Shown piece after piece: positions 21,761 to 39,308 of a stretch of 64,000 nucleotides of DNA. Position numbers and translations under genes: made by a program. The notes under the pieces are model-generated. The model made no database searches. It was not told the DNA's origin and saw only the letters and a list, made by a program, of their open reading frames with translations. Numbering within the stretch: the stretch's first letter is position 1; the number at the start of each line of letters is the position of its first letter. This DNA comes from an unidentified bacterial endosymbiont. GTDB lineage: Bacteria > Pseudomonadota > Gammaproteobacteria > Enterobacterales > Enterobacteriaceae. The stretch spans positions 992,001 to 1,056,000 of the forward strand of contig NZ_OU963893.1 in assembly GCF_918797525.1 (NCBI RefSeq). The letters are read 5' to 3'.

Positions 21761-21768
21761 GGTTCGCT

Positions 21769-23745
21769 ATGTCTGACGACATGTCTTCTTTTTCGCCTTC
21801 GTCAGCGGGCGAACAGGGTGTACTACGTTCTATGCAGGAGGTTGCGATGAGCTCCGAGGAAGCCAGCAAGATGCTGCGCACCTACAATATTGCCTGGTGG
21901 GGCAATAATTATTACGATGTCAACGAACTGGGCCACATCAGCGTCTGCCCGGATCCGGACGTTCCTGACGCGCGCGTGGACCTTGCCAAACTGGTGAAAG
22001 CCCGCGAAGCACAGGGCCAGCGTTTGCCTGCACTGTTCTGCTTCCCGCAGATCCTGCAACATCGTCTGCGTTCCATTAACGCCGCTTTCAAACGCGCGCG
22101 CGAATCCTACGGCTATCAGGGCGACTATTTCCTGGTATACCCGATCAAGGTAAACCAGCACCGCCGCGTGATCGAATCACTGATCCATTCCGGCGAACCG
22201 CTGGGGCTGGAGGCGGGTTCCAAAGCGGAGCTGATGGCCGTGCTGGCACACGCGGGTATGACCCGGTCGGTGATCGTTTGTAATGGCTATAAAGATCGTG
22301 AATATATTCGTCTGGCGCTGATTGGCGAGAAGATGGGCCATAAGGTTTACCTGGTCATCGAGAAGATGAGCGAAATCGCTATCGTGCTGGAAGAGGCCGA
22401 GCGGTTGAACGTCATTCCACGCCTCGGCGTGCGTGCGCGTCTGGCCTCGCAGGGTTCCGGTAAATGGCAGTCTTCTGGCGGCGAAAAATCCAAGTTCGGC
22501 CTTGCAGCAAACCAGGTGCTGCAACTGGTAGAGATGCTGCGTGAGCGCGGTCGTCTCGATAGCATTCAACTGCTGCATTTCCATCTTGGCTCGCAGATGG
22601 CTAATATTCGCGACATTGCGACCGGCGTGCGGGAATCAGCGCGTTTCTACGTCGAACTGCATAAGCTTGGCGTCAATATTCAGTGCTTTGACGTCGGCGG
22701 CGGCCTGGGCGTGGACTATGAAGGGACACGCTCGAAATCCGACTGCTCTGTAAACTATGGACTCAACGAATACGCCAATAACATTATTTGGGCGATTGGC
22801 GATGCCTGTGAAGAGAACGGTCTGCCGCATCCGACAGTGATCACCGAGTCTGGCCGCGCCGTCACCGCGCACCACACCGTACTGGTGTCGAACATCATTG
22901 GCGTTGAGCGTAGTGAAAATACCGAAGCGACACCACCGGCAGACGATGCCCCGCGCGCCCTGTTGAGCATGTGGGAAACCTGGCAGGAGATGCATGAGCC
23001 GGGAACACGGCGTTCTCTGCGTGAATGGCTGCACGACAGCCAGATGGATCTGCATGATATTCACGTCGGCTATTCTTCAGGCACCTTTAGCCTGCAGGAG
23101 CGCGCGTGGGCAGAGCAGCTTTATCTGAACATGTGTCATGAAGTACAGACACAGCTCGACCCAAGCAACCGCGCGCACCGTCCTATTATCGACGAACTTC
23201 AGGAACGTATGGCGGACAAGATTTACGTCAACTTCTCGCTGTTCCAGTCGATGCCGGATGCCTGGGGTATTGACCAGTTGTTCCCGGTGATGCCGCTGGA
23301 AGGGCTGAACCACGCCCCGGAACGTCGTGCGGTGCTGCTGGATATCACCTGTGATTCCGATGGGGCTATCGATCATTACGTTGATGGCGACGGTATCGCG
23401 ACCACTATGCCAATGCCGGAATACGACCCTGAGAACCCGCCAATGCTGGGCTTCTTTATGGTCGGTGCGTACCAGGAGATCCTCGGTAACATGCACAATC
23501 TGTTCGGTGACACCGAAGCGGTTGATGTGTTCGTCTTCCCTGACGGCAGCGTCGAAGTGGAGCTGTCTGATGAAGGTGACACCGTGGCCGATATGCTGGA
23601 ATACGTACAGTTGGATCCGAAAACCCTGCTGACGCAGTTCCGTGACCAGGTAAAAAATACCGGTCTGGACGATGCTTTACAGCAGCAGTTCTTAGAAGAG
23701 TTTGAAGCGGGTCTCTACGGATACACGTATCTCGAAGATGAGTAA
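21769..23745 (+). CDS. speA: Biosynthetic arginine decarboxylase
   Basis: SpeA decarboxylates arginine to agmatine, the first step of the arginine route to putrescine; SpeB then hydrolyses agmatine. It has 658 residues, as in E. coli. The PLP Lys lies in [12 protein letters not shown] near residue 127; [19 protein letters not shown] and the C-terminal [10 protein letters not shown] with the catalytic-Cys region are present. ATG 21769 gives the conserved MSDDMS start with GAGG upstream. In E. coli speB follows directly; here a 15-kb island intervenes. Confidence 0.97.
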
Positions 23746-23764: not shown

Positions 23765-23805
23765 AAAAAAGAGGGGGCTGACATCGTCAGCCCCCTCTTG
23801 TTTTA
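23765..23805. terminator. Bidirectional intrinsic terminator between speA and the TPS exoprotein gene
   Basis: A perfect 12-bp stem GAGGGGGCTGAC / GTCAGCCCCCTC (23771-23782, 23786-23797) extended by two A-T pairs. It is followed by TTGTTTT on the plus strand and TTTTTT on the minus strand, so it can stop transcripts from both converging genes. It marks the left edge of the island. Confidence 0.85.
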
Positions 23806-23847: not shown

Positions 23848-26800
23848 CTAACTTAACTGCTCGTCGTCGAAGGAGATCTGCACTTGCGCATAGAAATCAA
23901 CGGGCGTTTCTTGCAGCAGGGGAAGCCATTGCTTCGACTGAGAACGGGTGCCTGTTGAACTCATATCACCGTCCCAGGTTTTATGCTCCGGGGTCGGCGG
24001 CATATCCATACCGGTTTTGCCTGTGGAAGATCCTGGAGACAGTGATGGGGTGTCTCCACTGGTGTTGCTGGATGGTGCTACGCCATTAGTTTGATCGCCG
24101 TTCCACACCTTATGTTTTGGTGTTGGTGGAGTATCGAAACTTGGTTTCGCTGTGGCAGAGCCTGGCGATAACGTTGGATAATTGGTATTCGGCACTGCCC
24201 ATTTCTTCGCTGGCTGCGGTTTGCTTGCGCCGCCGTCAGCCGGGATAGTGCTGCTATCATCCGTGGTGTCGCTTTTCTTACCGTCAGTTCTGTCAGATGG
24301 CTGATCGGCGTCCGGGGTTTTCGCGTCATCCGCTGCCGGGGTATCTGTATCCGGTGTTTTTGCGTCATCTCCTTCTCCGGCATGCGTATCAGTATCCGGC
24401 TTTTTGGTCTCACCTTCTGCAGGTGTATCCGTGTCCGGCTTTTTCGCATCATCTTCTGCAGGCGTATCCGCATCCGGTTTTTTCGCATCATCCGCTGCAG
24501 GCGTCTCAGCGTCCGGGGTTTTCGCATCATCTTCTGCAGGCGTATCCGCATCCGGTTTTTTCGCATCATCCGCAGCAGGCGTGACAGCATCCGGCTTTTT
24601 CGCATCATCCGCAGCAGGCGTATCAGCGTCCGGCTTTTTCGTATTATCCTTAGCAGGCGTTACCGCATCCGGTTTTTTCGTATTATCCGTAGCAGGGGTG
24701 TCAGCATCCGGTTTTTTCGACGGCGTATCCGTATGCGGTTTTTTGTTATTACCCGGCGTCGGCGTGTCGAGATCATAGCTGCCTTTTTTGCCGAAGCCCG
24801 AAGGTGCGGCCATGGTAAAGGAGATATTATTACCCGCTTCCCTGCGATCTTCTGTCACCTCAGACATTGCATTGCTGTCAGTATTAATATTTCCGTTCGT
24901 TTTCCCCTTTTGTGAAAGATTGCCGGCATCAATGGTGGATTTTTGCGTTTCGCCATACTGAATTTCATCAACGGTATCAACATAGAGGTTGAAGGTCGGT
25001 TTACCGACATTCTTACCTGATTTACCGCCAATACCGGCGCCAGCGCCGCCGTAAATACCGTCTTTATCGATATAGTCTTTCTTCTCGGTGGCGTTGATAT
25101 CGCCATCAACGGAAATGTCTCCTGTTTTATCTTTCGAAACCAGATGCGAACCATCAAGATTGAGATCGCCGCCGGTTTTCGCATTCAGCTCTTTATTGGT
25201 GGTTATGCCAGACTGTTGAGATGTTGTGGCGGAATCATAATGTTCCGAACCGCCGCCGCCGCCGCCTGCAATGGTTGGCAAAATTTCGCCCTTGGTATTA
25301 ATACCAATACCCACGGAGCCGCCCCAGTTTTGTCTGCTGGCATCGGTGTGTACTTCGTCCTGAACGGAGGAAATGGAGAGATCGCCTGCGATATCTAAGT
25401 TAGCCGTATCAGCAGTAATGTTTCCGCCCGTCATCGTCATATCACCACCTGAGTTGATGTTAACGTCGTTGGCGTTAATTTCACTGTTGGTGAACGATTT
25501 ACTCTTCCCGGAGCTCTGTTCGTTGCTTCCGTTGTAGTCGAAAGATACCCCTGCACTCGCTCCCTGACGGTCTACGCTGCCGCCCATGGAAAGACCAGCG
25601 TGTTGAGACGAGCCGGACGTCGAGTATTCGCTGCTCGATTGTGCAGCATTAATATTGACGTCACCTCCGGCATTAATATCAACGCTTTCGGCATTCATAT
25701 CGACGCCGTTGAGCGTGGTATCTTTCTTCGAGTTGAACGATATTTTCCCACCGCTGTTAATATGGGTAATGTTCTCAGATTTAGAGGACGATGAGGTAGA
25801 TGACTTGTGCATATCCATGCCGATAGAGACCGAGCCGCTAGCCAAATCGTTAAACACCAGATTACTGACATCCCCAGCGGCTTGCGCAATGGTCCCCGCG
25901 ACGTTGAGCTCCTGGCCATCCTGGGCTTTGGCGATCAAATTGCCTGCTTTGTCCATCGAGTCAAGGACGGTACTGGAGGCTTCTCCTTTAATGCCAATAA
26001 ATTGATCTTCATGAGTTGTTGTTTCCTTCACCTCATCTTCATATTTTGTACTGGCGATGGTGTCGGCCGAAATCGACAAATCTCCGCCAGTATTGAGATC
26101 CGCACCACCAATATCCACGGTGTTATCAGCTTCAATTGAGGCTGATTTTTCAAAATTGAGCGATGCGTTTTTATTGGTCTTGGTCTGTGTATTTGTTGTA
26201 TCGGTGATGGTTTCCATACCCAGACGGAAACCGGCGGTATCATCAATAGCGGCACGACCCGGGCGACGACCATTGGAAGAGGCTTCCTGTTCTGAGCCGC
26301 CGCTGGTGTAATCGCCGGAAGAGGTGGAGCTTGATTTACCGTCAAGGCTGCTGTGCTCCGCCTCGGCACCATATCCGAAGGCATCTGCGTGGGCACCGGC
26401 AACAAACTCGCGCGAAGTAACGGTTGTTTCAGTCTCAGAGAGATCCTCTGAGGTTTTAATATCAACATTGTTGCCCGCCGAGATATCCCCTGTTTCAGCG
26501 GTATAACTCCCGCCTTCCATGACGACATCGTTGCTTGCATCGATCGTGAGCTTGCCGCCTGCTGAAACATTTGACCCGATGGCTTCCGCGGTTGTTGTTT
26601 TGGTATCAGTGGTACGATAGCTTCCCGCGCCCTTGATATCGGTATCAATTGTTCTTGACGCGTCCATCTCATGCAGGTCATTGAAGGTGACATCGCCATC
26701 CGTCGCTTTGAGCGTAATATCTTCACCGGCGGTGATATCTGACGCATTAGAGGTAATGGATTTGGCCTTCATGGAAATAGAGCCGCCCGCAGAGACGCCA

Positions 26801-29800
26801 TCGTCGAAGGCATGGATCTTCTGCGAGCCATCTTCATCACGACCGACGCTGGCCGTCATGGTGATATCGCCATTTTCAGCCGTCATCTCAATATCACCGT
26901 CGGCCTTGATGGACGCACCTTCATTGTTGATGTTTCCGTCGGTGGAGGTCATGCTCATATTCCCGCCCGCAGAGATACCGGAATTCATCCCATTGCTGGT
27001 ATTGGTGATATCCCCATCGGAGACCAGGGTCATGTCACCGCCGGAATGCAGGGAGCCGTTGGCGTTATTTATCGCGTCGGCATCAACGTTCATGTTGTTG
27101 CCTGCATTGATTGCCGCTGTACCGCTGCTGACGTCGCCGGTTTCAATTTGCTTGAGGGTTTCCGGGCAAAGATAAACAACCGGTACGAGGACGTCGACGC
27201 CATTAATGTTCTGGCTCACGAACCAGACGATATCCTGGTCCAGGTTTGCTTTTTGTTCTTCGGTCAGTGGCTCTCCGACCACCAGACCTAACTCTTCGTC
27301 GCCGGACGCGACGCCCGCGTTGTCCATTAACGACTGGACCAGATCATCACCTTCCAGACCGTCACGGACGGCAAAGAAACTACCCACGGAACTGGTGACT
27401 TCGCGACGAATCAGTTCTGAAACGAAATAGTTATCGCCGATCACCACGTACGTGGCTGATGTATCGTTGTTACCCGCACTGCCATCAGGTGTTGACGGGG
27501 TTTCTTTATCATCAATTTGATCAAACCAATAGTCTGCGCCAGAGTAGTCGTTCTGGTTGATCATGTCCGGGCGTGTTTCAAAGATAGGCACAATATGGTT
27601 GGCCGGGCCATCGTATTCCAGGCCATTTTTTTCGGCTTCTGCGGCTTTTTTGAAGTCATCAGAAAGCTCAAACATGCCCGGAATAGAGACCATATCTTTA
27701 ATCGTTGGCAGTGGACTGATGCCCATGGACAGTTCATCAATGGTTTTGGTGTTGACCTTAACATCATACCCGGCGATAACGGTATCGCCGCTATAGTCGC
27801 CGACATCAACATCGGTCACGGTAGCATTAGACTTAATCACTCCGGCTTCTGCGATGCCGTTATTAATCGTACCGCCATTTTGAGTAAAATTATGCCCGGC
27901 AGTTATTTCGCCTTTCTCAAGGGGAACAAAGTAGATTTTGTTATCTTTTAAGGCGGCATTGTTGCTACCAATGGTGGAACTCCAGGTGTTACATAGCTTA
28001 CTAAAACTCTGGGTCTGCCAGGTTTCCCCGAAGATCTTACTCATGGTGCTTTTCAGCTGCGTGGAGCTGTTGGCGGCATTCACCAGGCTGAGATATAAGC
28101 GTTCTTTATCGGCATCGTTGTTGCCACTTTTTGAGGCCGCCGAACCATTGCCGAACAGGAAATTAAAATATTGATATAGAGTATCGAATTTCCAGATGGT
28201 GGTATGATCTTTGGCCACGCGCCAGTTAAATTCAACCGTAATCTTGTTAGACAATGGCTGGGTCAGGAAATCAAACAGAGATTCTGATGTATAGGTCGGA
28301 GAGTTGTAGATATTCCCGGTGACAGTAATATCTTTACCCGCCTGAATGAGTCCTCCGATATTGTTGACGTCGTGAGTGTCGTAAATATCACGCTGGTTGA
28401 TATTGATATTTCCACCGGCACTCATCTCGGCCAGCCTGTCCAGGGCAATGTCTGAAGCTAAAACCGGGATATAGATTGTGGTATCAACGGTTATTTTTTT
28501 CGTTACATTGTCGATGGTTTTATAGGTACCGTTTGCTTTTTGGGTTTGCGTTTGGGTGATCTCACCTCCGGTATAGGTACTTTCATTTTTAATGGTTACC
28601 GCATCGAGATTAATATCTTTCTCAGCACGCACAATACCGGCATAGTTCCAGATCTCTTTCGCAATGATTGAGATATCACCCATACTGAGAACGTTACCCA
28701 GCATCATGTTGGTGAATTTCCCCGTGCGGGCTTCCAGGTTCATATCCCCCATTGTCCACAACAAGGTGTTTTCATTGTTGGTAATGTTGGCCGCGTTAAC
28801 GTTCAGATCGCCGCCGGTGACGATGGAGACGTTATTGACGAATTCGCCTTTCGCGTTGACGTTAAAGTCGCCAATGGCTTCAACGTTCGTATTGTTAGTG
28901 AAATCACCCTGAGTGGTGATGTCGACGGCCTGACCGGCACGGATGTCGCTGTTGGTGTTCTCCAGGTAAACGCTGTCAACAATATCAAGGGCCAGCGTGT
29001 ACGCCGACTCGAGGATACCGTTGGTGTTATCCAGATGGTCCAGCGCCATTTTCAGACTGTTTTCCGCGCTGATACTGCCACTGTTGGTGTTGTTAAGGCT
29101 CTTGCTGGTAAGCGATATGTCAGTACCGCCGATGAGCGCTGAACCGCTATTGTTGATGACACCGTTGCTGACGTTCAGCGTCGTTTTGTTGTTGCCGACC
29201 AGCACCGCACCGTCGCCGTTATTGATCGCTTTGCTAACGTTGAGGGTCAGATCGCTGTCGGCAGAGACAATAACGGCCTGATGATCGTTATTCACGGTAT
29301 CTGCATTAATGATGACATCACCGTTCGCCACAATCGTCGAAACAGCCTGGCCACCACCGGCGGATGGGCCAAAGCCTGTGTTGTTGAGCGTATCTGTGCT
29401 GATACGAACCTGGCCTTCCTGAGCCTGAATGACGCTCGCATCGGCGTTGGTGACGACGCCAATTGCTTCAAGAACGGTATTCATCCCCGACGTTATCACC
29501 GCGCCGCCAGTATTCAGCAGGGATTCGATATCCTTGATCGTCAAATTACCCAACGCCATCAGCACATGGTCGCTGCCCTGGTTAATCAGGTTCTTGATGT
29601 TACTTATGATCAGGTCGGTACCCGCCTGGATCACCCCTTCATTTTTTAGCGTGGTGCCATTGGAGAAATCCATTGCTCCTTCGCTAATCATATAGGCGCT
29701 ATTATTGACGGTGGTGGCGTTTTGAATATGCAGATCGCCTGCCGAAGTGATCACGGCTTCGTCTGTGTTAGTTAATGTACCTATTTTGTTCAGGCTCACT

Positions 29801-32250
29801 TCGCTTGCGGATTGCAGCGCCGCGCCGCCGGTGTTTTTCAGCGTGGTGATATCAGAGAGGCTAAGCCCGGTCTCACCATACAGGTTGGCGCCATTGCTGT
29901 TTGTGAGGGTGCCCAGTTTTGCCAGCGTAAGCAGGCCTTCAGACATGATCAAGGCGTTGTCGTTTTCCAGGTTATCAATGTTGGACAGCGCCAGGCTTTC
30001 CGAGGTGTAAAGCGTTCCGCCAGCGGTATTATTCAAAGTGTTAATATCATCAATCTTGATATTGTTGGCCTGGATTGTTCCTCCGCTGTTGGTCAAGGTG
30101 TCGAGGCCCGTTAAGGTTAAGTCGCCAGTGGAAAGGATCACCGCCTCGCTGGTGTTGTCCATCGTTGAAATTCCCTGGATGTCAAAAGCGCTTGCCTGGA
30201 TCCATCCGCCATTTTCGTTACGTAAGCTGGCCTTATCCCCCTGAATCTGCAGGCTGCCTTCCGCCAGGATCTCGCCGTTGTGGTCGTTTATCAGCGCTTT
30301 TTGGGCTGTGAGAGCAACATCTCCCGCACTGCTAAGCTGGCCGCCGTCGTTATTGAGCGTTGCGGCCTTCGCGGCCAGCTTTTGTTTCGCGCTGATGCTA
30401 CCAGTGTTGACAAGCGCAGCATCGGCGGCGGATGCATCAACGCTGACGTTGCGGCCTTCGATTTTGCCTTTATTCTTAACGGACTTGCCTTTAGCATTGA
30501 GCGTAACGTCCTGCTTATTGCTGACGATAAGACCGCTGTTGTCGACATCGCCTTCAACTTCAAGCAGAAGGGAGGCGTCGTCACCGCTTAGGGTACCGCT
30601 ATTGATTAAGTCACCTGCGGTGGTGAGCTGCATCTCTCCGGCAGAAACGCCGATAATGCCGGTGTTGTTCAGCGAACTGGCATTCATCACCAGCTTTTTA
30701 TCAGCAAACAGGCGGCCATTGTTTTCGAGCGATGCGACGGTGAGCTTCTGCGTGCCGGACGCATAAAGGGTGCCGTTGTTTTTCATTGAACCGGAAGAGA
30801 GGGTGATATCGCCGGTGGCATTAATCTGACCGCTGTTTTCAAAAGCATCGCTTAGGGTAAAGATCAGCGTGCCTTTTTTAGCAATCGCGACGCCGCCTTT
30901 GTTATTCATATTTTTCGCGGTGATGCTGACATCACCGCTGTCGGCAATAATTTCGGCGTCTGATATGATGGAGGCGAAAGGTACCTCAACACCGTTGTTC
31001 ATCACCACAAAATCACCGTTTTTCAGGGTGACAACCCCGCCGCTAATGACGTTACCCTTATCATCCAGCGCTTTCAGCGTGCCGCTCAGGACGTAGTCAC
31101 CGGCAACGTTTATCTGAATAGCGGGAACCGCCGTTTTCAGCGTACTTTCGGAAATCAGCGCTGCGGCATTTTGCAGAAGGGATGAGGCGTCAATGCGGAT
31201 GGTGCCGGAGTGGGTGGTTACATCGTGGTTGATTGTCGCACCGGCGAGCGCATTAATAATAACGTTACCCTGGGCTTCAGTGCCCCCGTTGCCTGCGGTG
31301 TCTTTATTAAGCGCAATCGCCTTCCCGGCAAGCGAAATATCGTTATCACTGTGCAGCGTCGTTAATGAGATATCGCCATCGGCGCTGATTTCAATATTAT
31401 TACTGGCGATAATACTGCCTGCATGGCGCACCCCGGCACCGGATTCGGTACTGATAAGCTGAATTTTTCCGGCATACATTGAGCCAAGCGCGCTTCCGTC
31501 AATCGCGACGCTGGGGGTGTTTTTATCCCCTTTACTACGAACCGTGTGGGTACGGGTATGGGGATCGTACTCATTCTGTCCCGCAAGTATTTTGAGATCG
31601 GCTGAACCCGCAATTTCGCCCTGTAGGGTCGCGCTGCGGCTCACAATATCGAAATAACTTAAGCCATCAGTAGAAATCCCTTTGCCCGTCACGCTGATAT
31701 TACCTTTTTCGACGGCCAGCTTATAGGTGCCGTCGTCTTTCATTTGCACTCTACCGGTGCTGAGGGTCAGACTATTGGCGTTGAGCGTTGACGCGCCATT
31801 GACGCTGATCCCATTTTCGTTGGCAATAATAACATCGGCTTTTTTACCGAAAACTTCCATGGTGCCATTGATATAGGAGGCCTTAGCGCCGGTCACTTCA
31901 CTGATAATCGCGCTGGCTTCCGACTGCAACTGGGCGTTTTTGACCGCATATCCGCCAATTTGCGTTACACCGTCGGTTTTGCTGTTGTTAAAAATCATCC
32001 CCTGTTTATCAACATCAAACTGGGTGAATTTATTATGAGAGACCCCTTTTTTATTAGGGTCGGCAATGTTGACCATCGGTACGCCGTTCGCGGCCTGGCC
32101 CATCGTTGCGCCATTACTCTGTTTTGAATCAGGCGTGATGGCCGCTTCGGCGTTGAGGGATAAAATACCGGCGAGGGATAAATATAACGGGCACAAATGC
32201 TTGTGCAACGTTTTAGCCGTTATCTTATTTTTCACATGTTTTGATTTCAT
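23848..32250 (-). CDS. Giant filamentous haemagglutinin-like TPS exoprotein (TpsA)
   Basis: A 2800-residue predicted secreted adhesin exported by its neighbouring TpsB. Order of parts: extended signal peptide to about residue 36 (LAGILSLNAEA); TPS domain to about residue 300 with VIIANENGISVNG, a variant of the NPNGI motif; long filamentous repeats rich in NN/NTGG/GDL beta-helix rungs; a conserved block near 1600-1700 (GDNYFVSELIRRE, LTEEQKANLDQDIVWFV, VLVPVVYL) also found in FhaB/CdiA; a second haemagglutinin repeat region to about 2450; a proline-rich 13-residue repeat array at about 2503-2660; and a 120-residue tail with a duplicated LSPGS...PPTP-x-HK-x-W-x-GD unit. There is no VENN motif, toxin domain or immunity gene. 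Of two tandem ATGs, 32250 is better spaced from AAGGA. It is the last gene of the six-gene array. Confidence 0.9.
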   Translation of the reverse strand: MKSKHVKNKITAKTLHKHLCPLYLSLAGILSLNAEAAITPDSKQSNGATMGQAANGVPMVNIADPNKKGVSHNKFTQFDVDKQGMIFNNSKTDGVTQIGGYAVKNAQLQSEASAIISEVTGAKASYINGTMEVFGKKADVIIANENGISVNGASTLNANSLTLSTGRVQMKDDGTYKLAVEKGNISVTGKGISTDGLSYFDIVSRSATLQGEIAGSADLKILAGQNEYDPHTRTHTVRSKGDKNTPSVAIDGSALGSMYAGKIQLISTESGAGVRHAGSIIASNNIEISADGDISLTTLHSDNDISLAGKAIALNKDTAGNGGTEAQGNVIINALAGATINHDVTTHSGTIRIDASSLLQNAAALISESTLKTAVPAIQINVAGDYVLSGTLKALDDKGNVISGGVVTLKNGDFVVMNNGVEVPFASIISDAEIIADSGDVSITAKNMNNKGGVAIAKKGTLIFTLSDAFENSGQINATGDITLSSGSMKNNGTLYASGTQKLTVASLENNGRLFADKKLVMNASSLNNTGIIGVSAGEMQLTTAGDLINSGTLSGDDASLLLEVEGDVDNSGLIVSNKQDVTLNAKGKSVKNKGKIEGRNVSVDASAADAALVNTGSISAKQKLAAKAATLNNDGGQLSSAGDVALTAQKALINDHNGEILAEGSLQIQGDKASLRNENGGWIQASAFDIQGISTMDNTSEAVILSTGDLTLTGLDTLTNSGGTIQANNIKIDDINTLNNTAGGTLYTSESLALSNIDNLENDNALIMSEGLLTLAKLGTLTNSNGANLYGETGLSLSDITTLKNTGGAALQSASEVSLNKIGTLTNTDEAVITSAGDLHIQNATTVNNSAYMISEGAMDFSNGTTLKNEGVIQAGTDLIISNIKNLINQGSDHVLMALGNLTIKDIESLLNTGGAVITSGMNTVLEAIGVVTNADASVIQAQEGQVRISTDTLNNTGFGPSAGGGQAVSTIVANGDVIINADTVNNDHQAVIVSADSDLTLNVSKAINNGDGAVLVGNNKTTLNVSNGVINNSGSALIGGTDISLTSKSLNNTNSGSISAENSLKMALDHLDNTNGILESAYTLALDIVDSVYLENTNSDIRAGQAVDITTQGDFTNNTNVEAIGDFNVNAKGEFVNNVSIVTGGDLNVNAANITNNENTLLWTMGDMNLEARTGKFTNMMLGNVLSMGDISIIAKEIWNYAGIVRAEKDINLDAVTIKNESTYTGGEITQTQTQKANGTYKTIDNVTKKITVDTTIYIPVLASDIALDRLAEMSAGGNININQRDIYDTHDVNNIGGLIQAGKDITVTGNIYNSPTYTSESLFDFLTQPLSNKITVEFNWRVAKDHTTIWKFDTLYQYFNFLFGNGSAASKSGNNDADKERLYLSLVNAANSSTQLKSTMSKIFGETWQTQSFSKLCNTWSSTIGSNNAALKDNKIYFVPLEKGEITAGHNFTQNGGTINNGIAEAGVIKSNATVTDVDVGDYSGDTVIAGYDVKVNTKTIDELSMGISPLPTIKDMVSIPGMFELSDDFKKAAEAEKNGLEYDGPANHIVPIFETRPDMINQNDYSGADYWFDQIDDKETPSTPDGSAGNNDTSATYVVIGDNYFVSELIRREVTSSVGSFFAVRDGLEGDDLVQSLMDNAGVASGDEELGLVVGEPLTEEQKANLDQDIVWFVSQNINGVDVLVPVVYLCPETLKQIETGDVSSGTAAINAGNNMNVDADAINNANGSLHSGGDMTLVSDGDITNTSNGMNSGISAGGNMSMTSTDGNINNEGASIKADGDIEMTAENGDITMTASVGRDEDGSQKIHAFDDGVSAGGSISMKAKSITSNASDITAGEDITLKATDGDVTFNDLHEMDASRTIDTDIKGAGSYRTTDTKTTTAEAIGSNVSAGGKLTIDASNDVVMEGGSYTAETGDISAGNNVDIKTSEDLSETETTVTSREFVAGAHADAFGYGAEAEHSSLDGKSSSTSSGDYTSGGSEQEASSNGRRPGRAAIDDTAGFRLGMETITDTTNTQTKTNKNASLNFEKSASIEADNTVDIGGADLNTGGDLSISADTIASTKYEDEVKETTTHEDQFIGIKGEASSTVLDSMDKAGNLIAKAQDGQELNVAGTIAQAAGDVSNLVFNDLASGSVSIGMDMHKSSTSSSSKSENITHINSGGKISFNSKKDTTLNGVDMNAESVDINAGGDVNINAAQSSSEYSTSGSSQHAGLSMGGSVDRQGASAGVSFDYNGSNEQSSGKSKSFTNSEINANDVNINSGGDMTMTGGNITADTANLDIAGDLSISSVQDEVHTDASRQNWGGSVGIGINTKGEILPTIAGGGGGGSEHYDSATTSQQSGITTNKELNAKTGGDLNLDGSHLVSKDKTGDISVDGDINATEKKDYIDKDGIYGGAGAGIGGKSGKNVGKPTFNLYVDTVDEIQYGETQKSTIDAGNLSQKGKTNGNINTDSNAMSEVTEDRREAGNNISFTMAAPSGFGKKGSYDLDTPTPGNNKKPHTDTPSKKPDADTPATDNTKKPDAVTPAKDNTKKPDADTPAADDAKKPDAVTPAADDAKKPDADTPAEDDAKTPDAETPAADDAKKPDADTPAEDDAKKPDTDTPAEGETKKPDTDTHAGEGDDAKTPDTDTPAADDAKTPDADQPSDRTDGKKSDTTDDSSTIPADGGASKPQPAKKWAVPNTNYPTLSPGSATAKPSFDTPPTPKHKVWNGDQTNGVAPSSNTSGDTPSLSPGSSTGKTGMDMPPTPEHKTWDGDMSSTGTRSQSKQWLPLLQETPVDFYAQVQISFDDEQLS
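24276..24746 (-). repeat. In-frame tandem repeat array (about 39-bp unit) in the TpsA tail
   Basis: About twelve degenerate units encode 13-residue blocks of the form KKPDADTPAADDA, with substitutions V/E/T at position 6 and occasional KTPD or TDNT variants. The array encodes an acidic/lysine Pro-rich stalk. Such arrays expand and contract by slippage in steps that keep the frame. Confidence 0.9.
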
Positions 32251-32263
32251 CATTCATCCTTAA

Positions 32264-33997
32264 TTAAAAATTAACATCCATTTTGTAGTAAACAACTGTA
32301 TTATCTATTTCTCGATCTGACATAGTGTCGGGCTTTTTAACGGGCCAACCAGCAGTTAAAGAGGATGAGAAATAACTCCCCGTCGCTTTAATCCCAACGG
32401 CTGCACCCATCATAAATTGCGCATCGCAGGTATTAACCCCTTCCGGGCAGTTATCCTGCGCAAAGCCAAAGTCATAACCCATAAAAGGTGTCAGTTGAGA
32501 AACACCTGCAAAATGGATATCAAAGGGTAAATTCAGGGTATTTCCGACCCATGCTCCACTGTCTACCTGTAGTGCATCGTCTTTATATCCACGTACGGTA
32601 AATTCGTCTCCCAGCGTGGCTTTGGCATCGCTTGCAAGCACATCCGGTGAGTACTGGAAACCGGTATTGAGTTCATAGCTGCCGCCTAAACGACCGAACT
32701 GAAACAGAGGCCGGGTCCAGCTGACCATGCCGTTATATTTGATGTAGTTTAAATCAAAGCCTTCGAGGTCCTGATCGTCTTTCCAGGCAGCGTCAAACCA
32801 GGGAACACCGGCCATCACGCCCAGATCGCCATACAGCCAGCCGCCCATCAGCGAGCCAACGTAGGTGATACCGGAAGAGACGCTGGTGTATTTTTTTGAA
32901 CTTACGTCAATTTGCTCATGCTCAAATGCGCTGTAATTGTCGCGTTTCTCCATCTTCGCCCAGAGACTGGTTTTGCCAGTTGCATTGCGGGCCAACATGC
33001 GACTTATACGCAGCGATTTACGGTCGGAATTACCTTCTGAGGCATAGTTGCCATAGCCACCGTCAATAGTCTGGTCATAGCTTGAATGATACCAGGATAG
33101 ATCGAATGTCCAGTACCCGAGAGGCACACCGTAACTTAATGACCAGGCCTTCTTTTCGTCGTCGTCATTAATCAGGTTATTCCAAGAGTAATAGGCGTTA
33201 AATATATCGTTCAGACCGGCGATATTCTTAAATGTCGTGCTGCCGTAATATTGCTGCCATCCTTCTGATTTGGAGCCGGAGTTATTAATGCCTGCGGAGA
33301 TTGATACCGGAAAGGAGGGTTTCACTATCAAGTTTAAATTGGACATCGCGTCGAGTTTGGACGGCTTTATCTGCAGGTTATCTTCCCCGGAAACGCGCAT
33401 CAGATTTTCCACCGCCTGATCAACATCCTGCATATTCAGTACCTTGCCTTTAGCAAACGGAAATGCGCTGAAAAGACGGGTTTTCTGGCGGAAGCTGGGT
33501 TCGCTGTTATTAACTTCAAAGCCGTTAATTTTTCCCCATAACACGCGTAAGGTGAGTACCCCTTCTTTGATACTGCCAGGTTCAATACCTACCATGGTCG
33601 TTACATAGCCACGGGAAATATAAAAATCCGTCAGTTCTCTGATAACGGTAAAAATCTCTGCTTTACCCAGCTCTTTTCCCTGATAATTTTCGATGATTTC
33701 TTGACGTTGCGGTGAGGCGTTAAAGCGTTCGTCATCAAGGATAACAATTTTGTCGATTTTGAATTTTACTCCTGCCTCGGCAGGGAGAGAAAAAATACCC
33801 TCATCATCTCTTTGGGCGCGCTGCTGCTGATACTGTTTTTCGGTCCGCTTGGCCTCTTCAATTATCGCCTGATTATTCTGACGTTCGAGTCGGTCAAGCT
33901 CTTGTTTATTTTGACGTGCGGGCAGCATGTCACTTGCATAAGCTGTACTGATGAGTGGCAGCAGAACCGCCAGATATTTAACCTGTTGACGAAGCAT
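32264..33997 (-). CDS. TpsB outer-membrane transporter (ShlB/FhaC family)
   Basis: A 577-residue Omp85-superfamily transporter predicted to secrete the adjacent exoprotein. It has a signal peptide (cleavage after STAYA), then a charged N-terminal helix region rich in Q/E/R (about residues 25-65, like helix H1 of FhaC), two POTRA domains (about 75-235, including FKIDKIVILDD and YISRGYVTTMVGI), and a 16-strand barrel. The conserved L6 motif appears as VRGY in EFTVRGYKDD near residue 465, and the C terminus is aromatic (MDVNF). A TTG one codon upstream is in frame, but ATG 33997 sits 6 bp from AAGGAG. It lies 15-18 bp after the fimbrial adhesin and about 13 bp before tpsA. Confidence 0.93.
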   Translation of the reverse strand: MLRQQVKYLAVLLPLISTAYASDMLPARQNKQELDRLERQNNQAIIEEAKRTEKQYQQQRAQRDDEGIFSLPAEAGVKFKIDKIVILDDERFNASPQRQEIIENYQGKELGKAEIFTVIRELTDFYISRGYVTTMVGIEPGSIKEGVLTLRVLWGKINGFEVNNSEPSFRQKTRLFSAFPFAKGKVLNMQDVDQAVENLMRVSGEDNLQIKPSKLDAMSNLNLIVKPSFPVSISAGINNSGSKSEGWQQYYGSTTFKNIAGLNDIFNAYYSWNNLINDDDEKKAWSLSYGVPLGYWTFDLSWYHSSYDQTIDGGYGNYASEGNSDRKSLRISRMLARNATGKTSLWAKMEKRDNYSAFEHEQIDVSSKKYTSVSSGITYVGSLMGGWLYGDLGVMAGVPWFDAAWKDDQDLEGFDLNYIKYNGMVSWTRPLFQFGRLGGSYELNTGFQYSPDVLASDAKATLGDEFTVRGYKDDALQVDSGAWVGNTLNLPFDIHFAGVSQLTPFMGYDFGFAQDNCPEGVNTCDAQFMMGAAVGIKATGSYFSSSLTAGWPVKKPDTMSDREIDNTVVYYKMDVNF

Positions 33998-34015
33998 CAA
34001 TCTCTCCTTGATTAT

Positions 34016-35020
34016 TTATTTGATGGCCATGGTGTACTGCACTGCGCCGACAATGCTTCCTGCACTAAGATCTTTTTTACGGTCTACGCTGCCAGCGACA
34101 TAGATTTGTGCCTGGTATGTTTTGGTCAGCGTTGGTGAAACGGTATAAGAATAGGCATTACCCAGCTTGATGGCTGTCGAGACATAGGTGCTTGTTTTCT
34201 CGAAGAGTTTTATGGCGAAGTTACTGGCATTATCGCTGCCACTTTCAACCCCAATAACCCCGGTCCCTGCGCCAAACGGAATAGAGTTAAAAGAGTTCAG
34301 GGTTAAGGTTACATCCGTGGCTGACGGGCAGGTCATGGTGATAGTGAACTCTTTTTTATCACCCTGGGCCGTAGAGCTGTTTTCAAAATAGGAGAGGTTA
34401 TAAGAACCGAGATCCACATTGTTTGTCGACGGGTAAATAGAACACGACCGGGTGACCACTTTTATCGACGTGCCGAAGTTTATCGTCATAATACGCAGTG
34501 TATCGCTGGCATTAGTGCTGGGGATAACGCTGGAACGGGCGATTTCTCCGGCGGGAATATAACTTTCTCCGTCATTAAGACCGCCGGTCTGCACGAATTC
34601 AATCAGCACCGTACTGTTCATTACGGAACATTCACTGGTACAGGTGATGCTACTGCCTGAGTTGCCAGGCACCCATACGCCAGAGCCGTTTGACGGCCAT
34701 TTGATTCTGATACCGATACCGGGTATCTCCGTGGCGTAAACGTTATCAAGGGGTGAATTGATATAGTTACGGCTGTATTCTGAGTGCCACGAAGAGAGAA
34801 CCCCTTCGTTACAGGTGTATTTTATATTTGGCACGTTATAGCTTTTTGACCACAGCACGGTCCCTGCGCTTCCTTTATTTGCCGGGTTTAACGTAATGTT
34901 ATCCGTTATATTAACAATGGCCTCGGCAGAGTTTAGTTTACACGCTGCTGCACGTGCTCCCGTGCTGATAAACAGGGACAGTAAAATCGCTGTTACACAC
35001 CATTTCAAAACCCCTTTCAT
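34016..35020 (-). CDS. Fimbrial tip adhesin (two-domain pilin-like)
   Basis: A 334-residue exported protein with a signal peptide (LFISTGARA). The N-terminal half has several Cys (AACKLNS, IKYTCNEG, CTSECS) and resembles a receptor-binding domain. The C-terminal half, from VVTRSCSIYP near residue 190, is a pilin domain ending YTMAIK, the alternating hydrophobic donor/chaperone strand typical of subunits. Being single-copy, about twice pilin length and last after the usher is the usual adhesin position. Its start overlaps the usher stop by 4 bp (ATGA). The ligand is unknown. Confidence 0.82.
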   Translation of the reverse strand: MKGVLKWCVTAILLSLFISTGARAAACKLNSAEAIVNITDNITLNPANKGSAGTVLWSKSYNVPNIKYTCNEGVLSSWHSEYSRNYINSPLDNVYATEIPGIGIRIKWPSNGSGVWVPGNSGSSITCTSECSVMNSTVLIEFVQTGGLNDGESYIPAGEIARSSVIPSTNASDTLRIMTINFGTSIKVVTRSCSIYPSTNNVDLGSYNLSYFENSSTAQGDKKEFTITMTCPSATDVTLTLNSFNSIPFGAGTGVIGVESGSDNASNFAIKLFEKTSTYVSTAIKLGNAYSYTVSPTLTKTYQAQIYVAGSVDRKKDLSAGSIVGAVQYTMAIK

Positions 35021-37590
35021 TTTTTATCTCCTGAAGATAGGCAAGAGAGGCTGAGAATTGTGCTGTCATCCGCCGCCGAGGGTTGTTCCAGTGGCGTAGA
35101 GTGGTAATGGACAGTACATTGCTGCTCTTGCTTTTTTTTCTTCCATTTCAGTACAAATGTATTTTCCCCTTCCTGCAGGGAAACCATGGCCATACCTGCC
35201 TGGCCAACAATGCCGGTGTTATTCATTGCGCTGTCGTTAATTGAGGCACCAAAAGGAATATCGCCGCCGTCCGGGGTGGTAAAATGCACCAGACTTTGCT
35301 GATTTTTCTGGGTATCCATTTTGATCAGCACGGTTGCACCTGCGGTAGGCACAATCTTGCGATGAGTATCTTCGATATCCACGCTCATGGCCGTGCCTTT
35401 TGGATCCAGATAAACATCGTTGTATTTATAAGGCACCAGATAACCGACGATGCCATAGCCGTTATCTTTTATAACTGAACGTGAATCAGGGTAAATGTGT
35501 GAACCTTCTGCACCCGTTGCGTCAATAATGCCGATGGTATCGCTGATGGAAGGGGTAAAGTTAATTCCGCCCGCGTGCGCCACCATACCGCCGCTCATGC
35601 TTACTCCGCCCATGAAGGAATCAAGGGATTGGCTGTAGTTAACCCCGGTCGTGGCACTTTCTCCGGTGTAAGACAGATTCATACCGAAGTTGGTATCAGG
35701 CTGGCTGGATTCGCTGAAGTAGCCACCAAAGCCAAACTGCGAGCGTTCACCGGCAGAACCGTTGAGGGAGGTGCGGAAATTCGCTTCGTTACTGTTGTAG
35801 CTAACATTTGCCCCCAGGCGGGCCTTTTTCTCGTAGCGATGACCCAGAGGCAACGAAACGTTGAGATAGACGGTATTTTCATGGCCGCCTTCGTCATCGT
35901 TTGTCCGGCTAAATGCAATCCCCCAACTTGTGGTACCGAACTGATTGTTATAGCCCAGCGTGAAGTTGGATTTATCGTTATGCGCCAGCTGTTCGTTCCA
36001 TACGTTGCCGAGGAAACCGCTGAGATAAAAACTTCCCCAGCCGGATGGCAATATCTGATTAATGTTGGCTTCCAGGCGCTCGCGGAAACGTTCTGGCTGC
36101 AGGCTATCTTCTCCTGTCTCCATCGCCTGCTTGAGGCTCACCGCGTCCGATAGCGAATAGAACCCTCTGCTTGAGTAGCGGTAGCCCACCAGGCTGAAGT
36201 TGGTTCCGGTTTCCGGGAGGTTTCGCGAAAGACTTAGCCGCAAACTCATATCGCATAATTGTCCGCAGTCGCCGGTAGCAGGCATATCGTCGAAATGGGT
36301 AAATGAACGCGTCACGTCTACCCCAAATGCCCCCAGGCGTGTGTTGATCGCAAAACCGGTCATCAGAGCGGAGTAATCCCCGTCGAACGCGCTCTGCGCA
36401 CCCACGTATCCGGTAAAATTATTCATCAACCCGTACTGGAGAGTGCCTTCAATCAGATACGGATCGCTTGATAATTCGGTGTCACGAATTTCGCCTGCAG
36501 AAAATGAGTAGCGGGAATAGCCTTCTCGCAGCAGCTGTGGAACGCTGGAGTAGGGGACAGTAAAGGAGCTTTCTTTGCCATTGGTCTCTTTAACGGTAAC
36601 GTCAAGATCGCCGTTATAGCCAGTGGCATAGAGATCGCTTATCGCGAACTCGCCTGGTGGAACAACCTTTTCGAAGATGGTGTTACCTGACTGCTTGATG
36701 GTCACTGTCGCATTACTGTTCGCCATGCCGCGCACCACGGGCGCATAGTTGCGTACGGAGTCCGGGAGCATGCGGTCATCGGTTGCCAGCTGCAGGCCGC
36801 GAAGGGCGGTCGTATCAAAGAAACTTCCGCTGGTATTGATATCACCGATCATCAGCTGTGATTGCAAAGGGGCGATCGCGCGCTCGGCAAATCCCTGAAT
36901 ATGCTGATATTTATCGCCGGAGACGTCGTTACCGAGGTTCAGGCTGTCATAGGTTGAAAAACGCCAGGCGCCAGCTGTCAGCGAGGTTAATAAGTTGCCG
37001 TAGCCGTAATTAGAGGTTTCTCCGAGGGTGCGATAGCGCGTACTTGTCGCGCTGAGCGAATAAGAGGCCGTAAGCGCAGTGACGCCGTCATCCCACAGCT
37101 CTGGACTGATAAATCCTTCTGGCGTATTGAGCAGCATCGCCTGTGGGACGGTGACATCCAGCGCCTCTTCTTCCTGGTTATAGGTGACGGTCGAGCCAGG
37201 GATTAGCTCAGGAAGGATCAGACACGATTTTGCTTTCCAGTTTTCGGGCAATTTAGCGGTATCGACGTCGAAACGGATCACCATCTCTGGCGTAATGCAA
37301 ACATCAATGCCCTGAGCATTATTCGCTGCGATAACCTTAACTGTCCAGGTGTCTATTTTTTTTGAATTACTGTTAACTTCAAGCTTGTATTCTCCGGGAA
37401 GGATTTTTTCGACGCCATCAAATTGTGACAGATCGGCACCGTTATCATAATAATGCATAAAGCCGCGAGAAAAAGAAACATGAGTTTTATTTTCTGTCGC
37501 GAACAGTTCGGTGCTGTGTGCGCCGGTGCACAACAGGGTCAATAGCATTACCTGCCGCATTCCTGCGCGGCATTTTATTTTATCTAACAT
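35017..37590 (-). CDS. Outer-membrane fimbrial usher
   Basis: An 857-residue PapC/FimD-family usher that assembles subunits across the outer membrane. It has a signal peptide (LLTLLCTGAHS), an N-terminal periplasmic domain, a plug-bearing barrel with the usher signature around PDSVRNYAPVVRGMANSN and TVTIKQSGNTIFEKVVPPG, GYNGDLDVTVKE, and C-terminal domains with a Cys pair (QQCTVHYH ... LSLSCLSS). ATG 37590 follows AGGAAGG at 4-5 bp. It lies 29 bp after the chaperone and overlaps the adhesin by 4 bp. Confidence 0.95.
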   Translation of the reverse strand: MLDKIKCRAGMRQVMLLTLLCTGAHSTELFATENKTHVSFSRGFMHYYDNGADLSQFDGVEKILPGEYKLEVNSNSKKIDTWTVKVIAANNAQGIDVCITPEMVIRFDVDTAKLPENWKAKSCLILPELIPGSTVTYNQEEEALDVTVPQAMLLNTPEGFISPELWDDGVTALTASYSLSATSTRYRTLGETSNYGYGNLLTSLTAGAWRFSTYDSLNLGNDVSGDKYQHIQGFAERAIAPLQSQLMIGDINTSGSFFDTTALRGLQLATDDRMLPDSVRNYAPVVRGMANSNATVTIKQSGNTIFEKVVPPGEFAISDLYATGYNGDLDVTVKETNGKESSFTVPYSSVPQLLREGYSRYSFSAGEIRDTELSSDPYLIEGTLQYGLMNNFTGYVGAQSAFDGDYSALMTGFAINTRLGAFGVDVTRSFTHFDDMPATGDCGQLCDMSLRLSLSRNLPETGTNFSLVGYRYSSRGFYSLSDAVSLKQAMETGEDSLQPERFRERLEANINQILPSGWGSFYLSGFLGNVWNEQLAHNDKSNFTLGYNNQFGTTSWGIAFSRTNDDEGGHENTVYLNVSLPLGHRYEKKARLGANVSYNSNEANFRTSLNGSAGERSQFGFGGYFSESSQPDTNFGMNLSYTGESATTGVNYSQSLDSFMGGVSMSGGMVAHAGGINFTPSISDTIGIIDATGAEGSHIYPDSRSVIKDNGYGIVGYLVPYKYNDVYLDPKGTAMSVDIEDTHRKIVPTAGATVLIKMDTQKNQQSLVHFTTPDGGDIPFGASINDSAMNNTGIVGQAGMAMVSLQEGENTFVLKWKKKKQEQQCTVHYHSTPLEQPSAADDSTILSLSCLSSGDKK

Positions 37591-37619
37591 TTAACCTTCC
37601 TGGTCAAAAATCCCTTTAT

Positions 37620-38354
37620 TCAGAATGCCTGTGTTTTAGTAACGTATGCACCCAAGTCAGTAATATAGTTGTATTTGAAAATCCCTTTTCCACTCAGCGT
37701 CTCGACCTGGGTGAAATGGTAAATCATGGTGCTATACGGTGCGACCATTTGACCTTCAACCACGACCTCTTTTCCTTGTCCGTTTGTCAGCCAGGCATTG
37801 GTCATACTGACGTGCCACGGGGACGCATTGACACCAATCACATCATACCCTTTGGCGACTTTCTTAATTTCCCAGCGCAAGTTATCAGCCGCTTCCTGCG
37901 GATTTCCCTTCAGACCGGCCGGGCGATAAAAGAATTTAATCAGCGTGCGGAAAGCCATTTTTAGCTGGTTCTGATTAGCGTCTTCTACAGCGTCAGGTGG
38001 AATATCCAGCACGTTTAGCCAGAGCACCGTTTCTCTGTCTTTAGGGTATTTCGCTACAGCCTCTTTTGTCTGGAAAATGCGGAACACCTTTCCCTTTTGC
38101 GGATTGATACGCGCCGCAGGAGGATTGATAAAAAAAGGTAATGACTCTTTAACAGCGCCATCGCTTTTATCAGTGCTGGACAGCCAGACCTGCACCAGTT
38201 CAGGATCTTTGCCTACATTATTAATGCGGACAGTCTGTTCTTTCTCCGCTGCGTTAAAGACGACGCGGGTTGTCATTATCTGCACCGTCGCGCTGGAAGA
38301 TGTCATCCAGAGAAGGGCGAGCAGCGGGACAAATTTTAAGGTTTTATTAAACAT
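37620..38354 (-). CDS. Periplasmic fimbrial chaperone (PapD-like)
   Basis: A 244-residue Ig-fold chaperone that caps subunits before delivery to the usher. It has a signal peptide ending near SSSATV, the N-domain strand with TTRVVFNAAEKEQTVRI, and the G1 strand region GKVFRIFQTKEAVAKYPKDRETVLWLNVLDIP, whose alternating hydrophobics and Leu/Asn/Ile-Pro ending are the family hallmark. K in IKFFYRP is conserved. It lies 48 bp after the major subunit gene and 29 bp before the usher. Confidence 0.94.
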   Translation of the reverse strand: MFNKTLKFVPLLALLWMTSSSATVQIMTTRVVFNAAEKEQTVRINNVGKDPELVQVWLSSTDKSDGAVKESLPFFINPPAARINPQKGKVFRIFQTKEAVAKYPKDRETVLWLNVLDIPPDAVEDANQNQLKMAFRTLIKFFYRPAGLKGNPQEAADNLRWEIKKVAKGYDVIGVNASPWHVSMTNAWLTNGQGKEVVVEGQMVAPYSTMIYHFTQVETLSGKGIFKYNYITDLGAYVTKTQAF

Positions 38355-38402
38355 ACGTAACCATTTTTTAATAGCAGGCGACGTAAAGACGTCGCCTGGC
38401 GA

Positions 38403-38969
38403 TTATTGGTATTTGATTGAATAAACCACGTCACTCGCAACGCTACCCGCCGTAGCGGCACCACCGGTGGCAACATATTGCGCCCAGTAGTCAAAGCGCG
38501 CGGTATTTCCGGAAATGGTGACTTGTTCTGCAGTATCGTTCGCGGTGTTTAAGTTCAGAATGGCTTTACTGGAGTTGAGTAAACCCACCTGGACTTTTTC
38601 AGCACCGCCACTGGCTTTGGTCACGGTATTTTTCAAATTACCGGTTTTGGTATCGACATTGGTACTTTGAGCCAGTTCAAAATAGACGCTGGCTACTTTG
38701 CCGTTAGGGCAATTCGCGCCGCTCAGGCTAACGTGAAATGGCGTGTCACCTGCCCTCTGACCATCGCTTGTCAGCGCGGTGGTGCTGACGGAAGGCAAAT
38801 GAACGGTAAAATCTGGAGTGGATGATTCGCCCGTTGCGTCGCCGCCTGTAATGGTACAGGTGGCATCGCTAATTGAGCCGGTAAACGTGATTGTTCCATC
38901 TTCTGCCGCTGCAGCGGTACCTGCGCTAATAAGAACGGTAAGCAGTGCAGCTTTTTTCAGCATCTTCAT
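38403..38969 (-). CDS. Major fimbrial subunit
   Basis: A 188-residue FimA-type pilin with signal peptide (LLTVLISAGTAAAA). The mature N terminus AEDGTITFTGSISDATCTI is the donor strand and first Cys, LSGANCPNG holds the second Cys, and the C-terminal VVYSIKYQ is the penultimate-Tyr beta-zipper. AGAAGGG lies 7 bp before the ATG. It is the first gene of the six-gene array, so it is expected to be the most abundant product. Its repeated T/S/N/G surface is typical of antigenically variable pilins. Confidence 0.93.
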   Translation of the reverse strand: MKMLKKAALLTVLISAGTAAAAEDGTITFTGSISDATCTITGGDATGESSTPDFTVHLPSVSTTALTSDGQRAGDTPFHVSLSGANCPNGKVASVYFELAQSTNVDTKTGNLKNTVTKASGGAEKVQVGLLNSSKAILNLNTANDTAEQVTISGNTARFDYWAQYVATGGAATAGSVASDVVYSIKYQ

Positions 38970-39003
38970 AATTATTCCCTTCTGTAAAATTAAATGCGAG
39001 TTG

Positions 39004-39032
39004 ATTATAAAAATGCAGTCTGCTTCTGGATA
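39004..39032 (-). promoter_or_regulatory. Candidate promoter of the fimbria/TPS array
   Basis: On the minus strand a perfect TATAAT (39009-39004) lies 35 bp upstream of the pilin ATG in a very AT-rich region; the -35 (TATCCA at 17-bp spacing) is poor, suggesting an activator. No invertible element flanks it. Confidence 0.4.
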
Positions 39033-39105
39033 TTGATGTTTTCCTATTTTGTTATTTAGTATTTCTAAATGTATTTAATATATAAATAGAAAGAATGTAT
39101 TACTT

Positions 39106-39121
39106 TTAAATATATATTTAA
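39106..39121. repeat. 16-bp perfect AT palindrome
   Basis: TTAAATATATATTTAA, in the AT-rich stretch between the fimbrial array and speB. It could be a binding site for a regulator or H-NS-prone DNA, or chance in AT-rich sequence; the rest of 38970-39170 shows no gene. Confidence 0.4.
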
Positions 39122-39170
39122 GACATGGACGTCAGGCTGCCGTGGTCGTCCGCGCGGTGGTGGAAAGAGC

Positions 39171-39198
39171 TTGACTGTTCCCCGCCAGCAGCCATAAT
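39171..39198 (+). promoter_or_regulatory. Candidate sigma70 promoter of speB
   Basis: TTGACT, 16-bp spacer, CATAAT: five of six matches in each element. It would start transcripts near 39205. E. coli speB also has its own promoter besides read-through from speA; here this one would be essential. Confidence 0.6.
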
Positions 39199-39224
39199 TC
39201 ATCAACAACATGTATTTATTAATG

Positions 39225-39270
39225 AATCCCTTCCTCGTCGGGCCTAACGACGCGGAGGGGATTTTTTTTC
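39225..39270 (+). terminator. Strong intrinsic-terminator hairpin in the speB leader
   Basis: A 16-bp arm (39225-39240) pairs with 39248-39263 with about one mismatch and one wobble; core pairs are AATCCC/GGGATT and CGTCG/CGACG, with a roughly 7-base loop and a run of eight T. It lies after the candidate speB promoter and about 40 bp before the speB ATG, so it would act as an attenuator or as a block to transcripts from upstream. Confidence 0.75.
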
Positions 39271-39308
39271 ATCATTTCCACTACATCGACTTTAAAAGAG
39301 GTCAGGAT

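Follow-up and report, generated by a model that had tools for sequence, protein, structure and literature searches.

A 64,000-nucleotide stretch of contig NZ_OU963893.1 (assembly GCF_918797525.1, positions 992,001 to 1,056,000; hereafter the window, whose coordinates are used throughout), from a bacterial endosymbiont of the Enterobacteriaceae, carries six adjoining genes on its minus strand that encode both a chaperone-usher fimbria and a two-partner secretion (TPS) pair, the giant adhesin TpsA and its transporter TpsB. This block is a conserved, co-inherited module, and its six-gene arrangement is more than chance juxtaposition. From sequence comparison we judge it probable that the block has spread horizontally as one unit and directs the joint production of two adhesive organelles, most likely as a single operon. 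The gene content and order, the conservation and shared history of the genes, the kinship of TpsB with FhaC, the transporter of Bordetella filamentous haemagglutinin (FHA), and the hairpins described below were established by computation in this study. All six reading frames were present between positions 23848 and 38969 as a preliminary description of this DNA had reported, separated in gene order from the pilin by the gaps it had given (48, 29, -4, 15 and 10 bp), and all six proteins matched the expected Pfam families above cut-off:

38403..38969, minus strand: major pilin, 188 amino acids (PF16970, 2.2e-13; PF00419, 3.1e-12)
37620..38354, minus strand: periplasmic PapD-type chaperone, 244 amino acids (PF00345, PF02753)
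35017..37590, minus strand: outer-membrane usher, 857 amino acids (PapC_N, Usher and PapC_C domains: PF13954, PF00577, PF13953)
34016..35020, minus strand: two-domain tip adhesin, 334 amino acids (PF22003, PF00419)
32264..34000, minus strand: FhaC-like TpsB transporter, 578 amino acids (PF08479, PF17287, PF03865; two POTRA domains and a ShlB barrel)
23848..32253, minus strand: FHA-like TpsA giant adhesin, 2801 amino acids (PF05860, 9.2e-55, N-terminal TPS domain; PF13332)
24304..24719, minus strand: 39-bp tandem repeat (13 codons), 10.5 copies, within the TpsA tail

By its usher domains, PapD-type chaperone, pilin and two-domain tip adhesin the block encodes a chaperone-usher fimbria, while the TPS domain, the POTRA domains and the ShlB barrel identify TpsB-TpsA as a two-partner secretion (type Vb) pair. 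The predicted structure of the tip adhesin (mean pLDDT 86.1) comprises a receptor-binding domain at about residues 26-191, which in predicted-structure comparison resembled Abp1D, Abp2D and MrkD1P, and a pilin domain at about residues 192-334, which resembled FimG; that no Bordetella adhesin was among the structural matches is uninformative. In TpsA the TPS domain, whose closest solved structure is that of FHA (1rwr), is followed by haemagglutinin repeats and a Pro/Asp-rich repeat tail. The start of TpsB was counted from a TTG at 34000, with an ATG immediately after it at 33997. The best NCBIfam models were PRK09828 for the usher (551.3 bits, under the 830-bit equivalog cut-off) and PRK09926 for the chaperone (191.6 bits, under the cut-off of 285), which we take to be those of YbgQ and YbgP, making the YbgQ/YbgP fimbria of Escherichia coli the best modelled counterpart, at scores below both cut-offs. 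An E. coli system as such was rejected, a nucleotide search at 'distant' sensitivity through 5,426 E. coli genomes having found no match to the 3-kb TpsB-adhesin stretch; likewise, no defence model matched TpsA or TpsB, and an anti-phage defence system was discarded as a candidate.

Close kin of the TpsB were found in 5 of 61 genomes of the genus (the endosymbiont's own included), 15 of 392 of the family and 2 of 398 across the phylum, and the module was also present in the Cupriavidus family (3 of 398 genomes) and on plasmids from Yersinia enterocolitica and Providencia alcalifaciens. Searches for Bordetella genomes in the Cupriavidus family and its order yielded module carriers only (3 of 398) and the search centre itself (1 of 399), respectively. 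When named genomes were scanned, 26 loci came up, of which 13 were duplicates, eight were new and five encoded distant TpsBs, with no fimbrial genes shown at the latter; an earlier scan of this kind with a single TpsB had given 23 pattern matches, none of them confirmed. Thirty loci with a TpsB of the family were fetched, selected by TpsB and not by the fimbrial half and leaving out L191, a second Y. enterocolitica plasmid record. All six genes lay in the same order and on the same strand in 28 of these, which came from enteric genera, Cupriavidus and plasmids; the two exceptions were L059 (Enterobacter sp. kpr-6), with TpsB-TpsA alone at speA/speB, and L114, which is cut by a contig end. The tpsA gene was last in the window as well as in the other 27 six-gene loci, and the tight adhesin-TpsB junction noted in the preliminary description recurred in 28 of 28, at -4 to 45 bp, figures that are lower bounds with starts set at the first possible codon. 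A reverse check that started from the usher, smaller than the TpsB-led survey, scored three candidates in each of 246 family genomes and gave six ushers above 700 bits, all in the module, and a next score of 522 bits; the 700-bit cut would miss the L067-L070 group, whose divergent ushers are about 28% identical.

The neighbourhood search proposed in the preliminary description separates these loci clearly from those of other TpsBs, since 28 of 30 family loci keep the order while an usher or adhesin stood within the 1.5-kb flanks in 0 of 46 control loci (one gene entered twice as L031 and L166; flanks shortened by contig ends in L018, L163, L169 and L180). Conversely, TpsB was absent from the 1.5-kb flanks of the 24 nearest other ushers (0/24) and from within 5 kb at five further usher loci. 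In a tree of ushers, 27 TpsB-linked sequences were split from 32 others by a branch with SH-aLRT support of 100. Because the Cupriavidus usher proved equally similar to Burkholderia ushers and to the Yersinia usher, this tree was rebuilt with database and Burkholderiales ushers. The database set P0055-P0120 contributed 25 of its 66 ushers and P0037-P0054 contributed 11 of 18, while the own-genome ushers L001, L003-L006 and L008 of the first tree were dropped. In the enlarged tree 55 of 56 other ushers remained on one side (support 100); the remaining one, the metagenomic usher P0069, labelled 'other', stood among the module ushers. L055, whose usher is in two pieces, was excluded from both usher trees. 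Similarly, the 30 family TpsBs were separated from 22 of the 46 others, with one side at support 98, and again from all 46 plus two distant ones in a second tree of 29 family rows from which the fragment L114 had been dropped. All of these trees were built quickly, with SH-aLRT as the sole measure of support, and several of their rows are long.

The usher and TpsB phylogenies, likewise proposed in the preliminary description as a check on co-inheritance, shared 15 of 22 splits (maximum 4 in 500 permutations), and their pairwise distances were correlated (0.86, Mantel p 0.0001, n=25); both tests left out L053, L055 and L127, and L059 and L114 lack genes needed for them. Together with the conserved order in 28 of 30 loci, this largely congruent history bears out the claim of one co-inherited module. 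The usher clade, whose members of known context adjoin a TpsB, suggests that the fimbria and the TPS adhesin were selected together. As a separate observation, L067, L068, L069, L070 and L128 (Citrobacter sp. JGM124, Klebsiella sp. BIGb0407, an Enterobacteriaceae metagenome-assembled genome, Cedecea and a Providencia plasmid) formed a subclade whose branch measured 2.4-2.55 changes per site for the ushers vs 0.87-0.98 for the TpsBs; judged by these lengths, the usher evolved unusually fast there.

For the working of the module we infer a single transcript with a step-down, a function for each product and a joint use of the two organelles. Transcription would start in front of the pilin gene, and genes 1-4 would yield a small chaperone-usher fimbria tipped by the two-domain adhesin. 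Behind the pilin gene, a hairpin may step transcription down, giving much pilin and less of the other products, while the remaining transcription would run through the adhesin gene into tpsB-tpsA and end at a hairpin behind tpsA. Genes 5 and 6 would act as an FHA/FhaC-type pair in which TpsB, and not the usher, exports TpsA, the latter presumably serving as a surface adhesin. The signals concerned are the following:

38970..39209: divergent region before the pilin, A+T-rich (34.6% GC), putative operon promoter
38375..38397, minus strand: strong hairpin in the pilin-chaperone gap, no T-run (z -4.46; 0 of 200 shuffles fold as well)
23765..23803, minus strand: intrinsic-terminator-like hairpin after tpsA, with T's (arms of 18 nt, 94% complementary)

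The preliminary description had seen no internal terminator, and a terminator scan of the window indeed listed no minus-strand site in any junction (the hairpin after tpsA is also absent from that list), but the strong hairpin between pilin and chaperone had gone unmentioned. A hairpin directly behind the pilin reached a z of -2 or lower in 18 of the 28 six-gene loci and one behind the adhesin in 0 of 28, the 28 loci being related and not independent. Since the hairpin of the window lacks a T-run, an expression step between the pilin and the downstream genes, by protection of an RNA end or by partial attenuation, appears likelier than a transcription stop. In place of a smooth polarity gradient, this hairpin is the likeliest step. 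No invertible element was found before the pilin of the window, where there were short A+T-rich repeats only.

Transcription from the front of the block was weighed against an arrangement of two neighbouring operons, in which the fimbria is expressed from the pilin promoter, tpsB-tpsA mainly from a promoter in the 3' end of the adhesin gene, and the halves stay together only by moving as a block. This alternative, which we consider unlikely, can draw on the tolerated loss of one half in L059 and on TPS pairs that stand alone elsewhere, including the FhaC-like pair of genome G821 with no fimbrial match in about 10 kb upstream. It fits poorly with the short adhesin-TpsB gap in every six-gene locus. 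A sigma-70 scan of the minus strand, covering this promoter type only, placed sites in tpsB (33645-33617 and 32436-32409) and in the usher gene and none in the adhesin gene, and the synonymous conservation of the last 59 adhesin codons was 0.37-0.49 by block vs 0.405 overall. The codon data give no clear sign of a promoter there, which agrees with the preliminary description, in which a strong one at this place would count as a refutation.

Further evidence on this point comes from a 21-bp leader element in L053-L057, which starts 55-96 bp before the pilin frame and may resemble an RcsAB box; a model built without a given locus still recovered the element in that locus (0-1 of 300 shuffles). 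In the fimbria-less L059 this element stands ahead of tpsB (19.8 bits, 0 of 300 shuffles), and a -10-like sequence was seen by eye at a similar distance. When the L059 leader was aligned locally with pilin leaders, 7 shuffles out of 500 reached the score for the window, 1 for L056 and 12-38 for the other five, while blastn against the module loci returned a single match with an E value of 0.78. The L059 leader would fit a deletion by which tpsB came to lie directly behind the pilin leader. In both TpsB trees L059 nests within the speA/speB group, and its fimbrial half was therefore most likely lost. Taken together, the hairpins, the leader element and the codon data favour, without proving it for this genome, transcription that begins ahead of the pilin gene and continues to the end of tpsA.

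Several observations weigh against a single, jointly used operon. The module is sporadic, occurring in the 5 of 61 genus and 15 of 392 family genomes given above, and a gene is interrupted in three loci (TpsA in L053, the usher in L055 and TpsA in L127). L059 carries TpsB-TpsA without a fimbria; the independent movement of the two halves that the preliminary description had named as refuting evidence is seen once, in part, in this loss. The post-pilin hairpin was not significant in 10 of the 28 loci, several of which are the nearest kin of the window. The leader element was found in just 5 of 28 six-gene loci and not in the leader of the window, where its score of 2.7 bits was reached by 133 of 300 shuffles, and in the other 22 loci the score was reached by at least 17 of 300. 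Moreover, the element was first spotted in an alignment that included L059, which is consequently no blind prediction. With regard to the interrupted loci L053, L055 and L127, a second plasmid record annotates the TpsA as a single gene.

The closest known counterpart is the fha/fim system of Bordetella, which, with the roles that we presume for the individual genes fimA-D, likewise combines a fimbria and an FHA-type TPS adhesin in one operon and shows the same order of pilin, chaperone, usher, adhesin and TpsB as the module. The two differ in the TpsA gene, which comes first in Bordetella (fhaB) and last in the module, and in the flanks, which are bvgAS in Bordetella and speA/speB in the window. 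As far as the available parts of the sources go, fimABCD precedes fhaC (PMC2225982), and fhaB/fimABCD/fhaC is termed one operon with a RisA site between fimA and fimB (PMC11019879). The preliminary description had noted a shared locus in a different order; the shared locus stands, but the parallel is closer than it supposed, with five of six genes in the same order and FhaC grouping with the TpsB clade. On the basis of this five-gene order, the grouping of TpsB with FhaC and a TPS domain nearest to that of FHA among solved structures, the module and the Bordetella operon are probably related, TpsA being encoded at the 3' end in the former and at the 5' end in the latter. This opposite position of TpsA is the reason why we do not file it as a member of the Bordetella fha/fim operon type.

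Independent convergence, in which Bordetella and the module paired a fimbria with FHA separately and the five-gene order is coincidental, is a serious possibility, although we lean against it. No Bordetella-named row was among the 120 usher rows listed of 476, most of them nameless. According to the part of the B. petrii report at hand, fhaB/fhaC and three fimbrial clusters lie at separate loci in that species and the orthology of its fha genes is doubted (PMC2572626). The FhaC-like TpsB of G821, moreover, had no fimbrial gene matched within about 10 kb upstream, implying a TpsB lineage older or wider than the association with fimbriae, and both FhaC and this TpsB are long branches. Against convergence stand the five genes in the same order, the position of FhaC, together with the G821 TpsB, on the side of the module clade with support 100 vs 47 other TpsBs, and the fact that the three best BLAST matches of FhaC are Cupriavidus-family members of the module. 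In profile comparison with solved structures, too, the TpsB family matched FhaC best (320.9 bits, the best CdiB reaching 207.7). A bolder version of common descent, which we put forward tentatively and regard as rather unlikely, would see the six genes as the uninterrupted form of an old fimbria-plus-FHA module and Bordetella fha/fim as a rearranged relative whose TpsA gene moved to the front, with a TpsB-devoted usher lineage keeping both organelles in one transcript across Beta- and Gammaproteobacteria because they would work as one surface structure.

Two further systems could account for a TpsA in such company, and we give both very little credence. The cupB1-6 cluster of Pseudomonas aeruginosa is also a fimbrial cluster that encodes a TpsA-like protein, and in the portion of the source available, export of the TpsA-like CupB5 is ascribed to CupB3, a P-usher with a POTRA domain (PMC3031594); by analogy, the usher of the module would export TpsA with TpsB as an accessory. 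Even though the CupB6 tip adhesin was among the structural matches of the tip adhesin, all 22 ushers of the module clade had the PapC_N, Usher and PapC_C domains and none a POTRA match, and a complete, separate TpsB with two POTRA domains adjoins TpsA, so that this explanation was rejected. A contact-dependent inhibition (CDI) locus, with TpsA as a CdiA carrying a toxic tail, is evoked by the TpsB-TpsA order, which resembles cdiBA, and by the haemagglutinin repeats. However, among the TpsAs compared, seven cut or broken ones of the 30 being left out, 23 had no VENN motif near the C-terminus (three carried one between residues 451 and 838; the tail of L123 was masked), and the tails appeared by eye to be partly conserved rather than cassette-like. 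In addition, FhaC outscores CdiB as a match of the TpsB family, and the roughly 100 bp between tpsA and speA, containing the terminator-like hairpin, leave no room for an immunity gene. With neither that room nor a VENN-marked variable tail, CDI was rejected as well.

The preliminary description knew of no enterobacterial system with this gene order; we found no description of the six-gene array in the literature searched either, a result that does not establish absence from print, most subscription papers lying outside its coverage, but the module extends beyond this genome and beyond the enterics. Within that literature, the module is a real, undescribed six-gene variant of the Bordetella fha/fim kind. 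The nearest published trace is in a paper on Chimaeribacter arupi, the accessible part of which lists a four-gene fimbria with gene lengths and gaps equal to those of L062; a ShlB-type gene located 1.6 kb beyond it is entered in another table, on hemolysins, and no link is drawn between the two (PMC10587679). In L062 TpsB starts 39 bp after the adhesin, and the annotated ShlB-type gene may therefore be partial or another gene; the tables illustrate how gene-class lists can split one locus. In Klebsiella, as far as the partial sources cover, additive adhesion roles were described in one strain for the KpFhaB/FhaC TPS system and the separate Kpi pili of chaperone-usher type, and a two-gene fhaB/fhaC region for which no fimbrial genes of that cluster are named. 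A single genus offers little basis for explaining why Bordetella combines fimbriae and filamentous haemagglutinin within an operon; the 30 loci in enterics, Cupriavidus and plasmids turn the pairing into a comparative question, one of them being a natural case in which the fimbrial half is gone while the pilin leader seems to remain.

The six-gene block separates speA from speB, a circumstance that the preliminary description had not reported. The flanking features are:

21757..23745, plus strand: speA, left flank
39210..40229, plus strand: speB reading frame, right flank (relatives favour a start near 39309)
39171..39198, plus strand: speB promoter-like site beside the island (TTGACT-16-CATAAT; compared by eye with empty sites)

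The speB gene is present in 61 of 61 genus genomes, and speA adjoins it in 28 of the 29 other genus loci (30 returned, one being the window's own). The exception was L096, in which speA was not beside speB within the 1.4 kb examined. Nine empty sites matched the window to about the stop of speA, with seven of the nine passing the cut-off there, and the match resumed at about 39214-39221 in all nine. Just left of this rejoin point lies the promoter-like pair, and the insertion need therefore not silence speB. The GC content of the island was 49.7% vs about 55.6% in speA and speB. In L096, positions 2560-3918 hold other DNA beside speB where its kin have speA, from which the site seems to take up other insertions. 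In Citrobacter sedlakii (L057/L103/L190) and in G116 (L058) the module is near speB as well, but speA and speB do not enclose it as they do in the window, a hint that this site has seen insertions or rearrangements more than once.

A strong hairpin with a run of eight U's on its 3' side was found in the speB leader at 39224-39275 on the plus strand, downstream of the promoter-like site and ahead of the speB start. None of 200 shuffles folded as well as the 122-nt leader (z -4.36), this sequence is conserved across the nine empty-site relatives compared, and the hairpin looks like an attenuator. The only Rfam match of the window at gathering scores was a 6S RNA gene at 57601-57784 on the minus strand.

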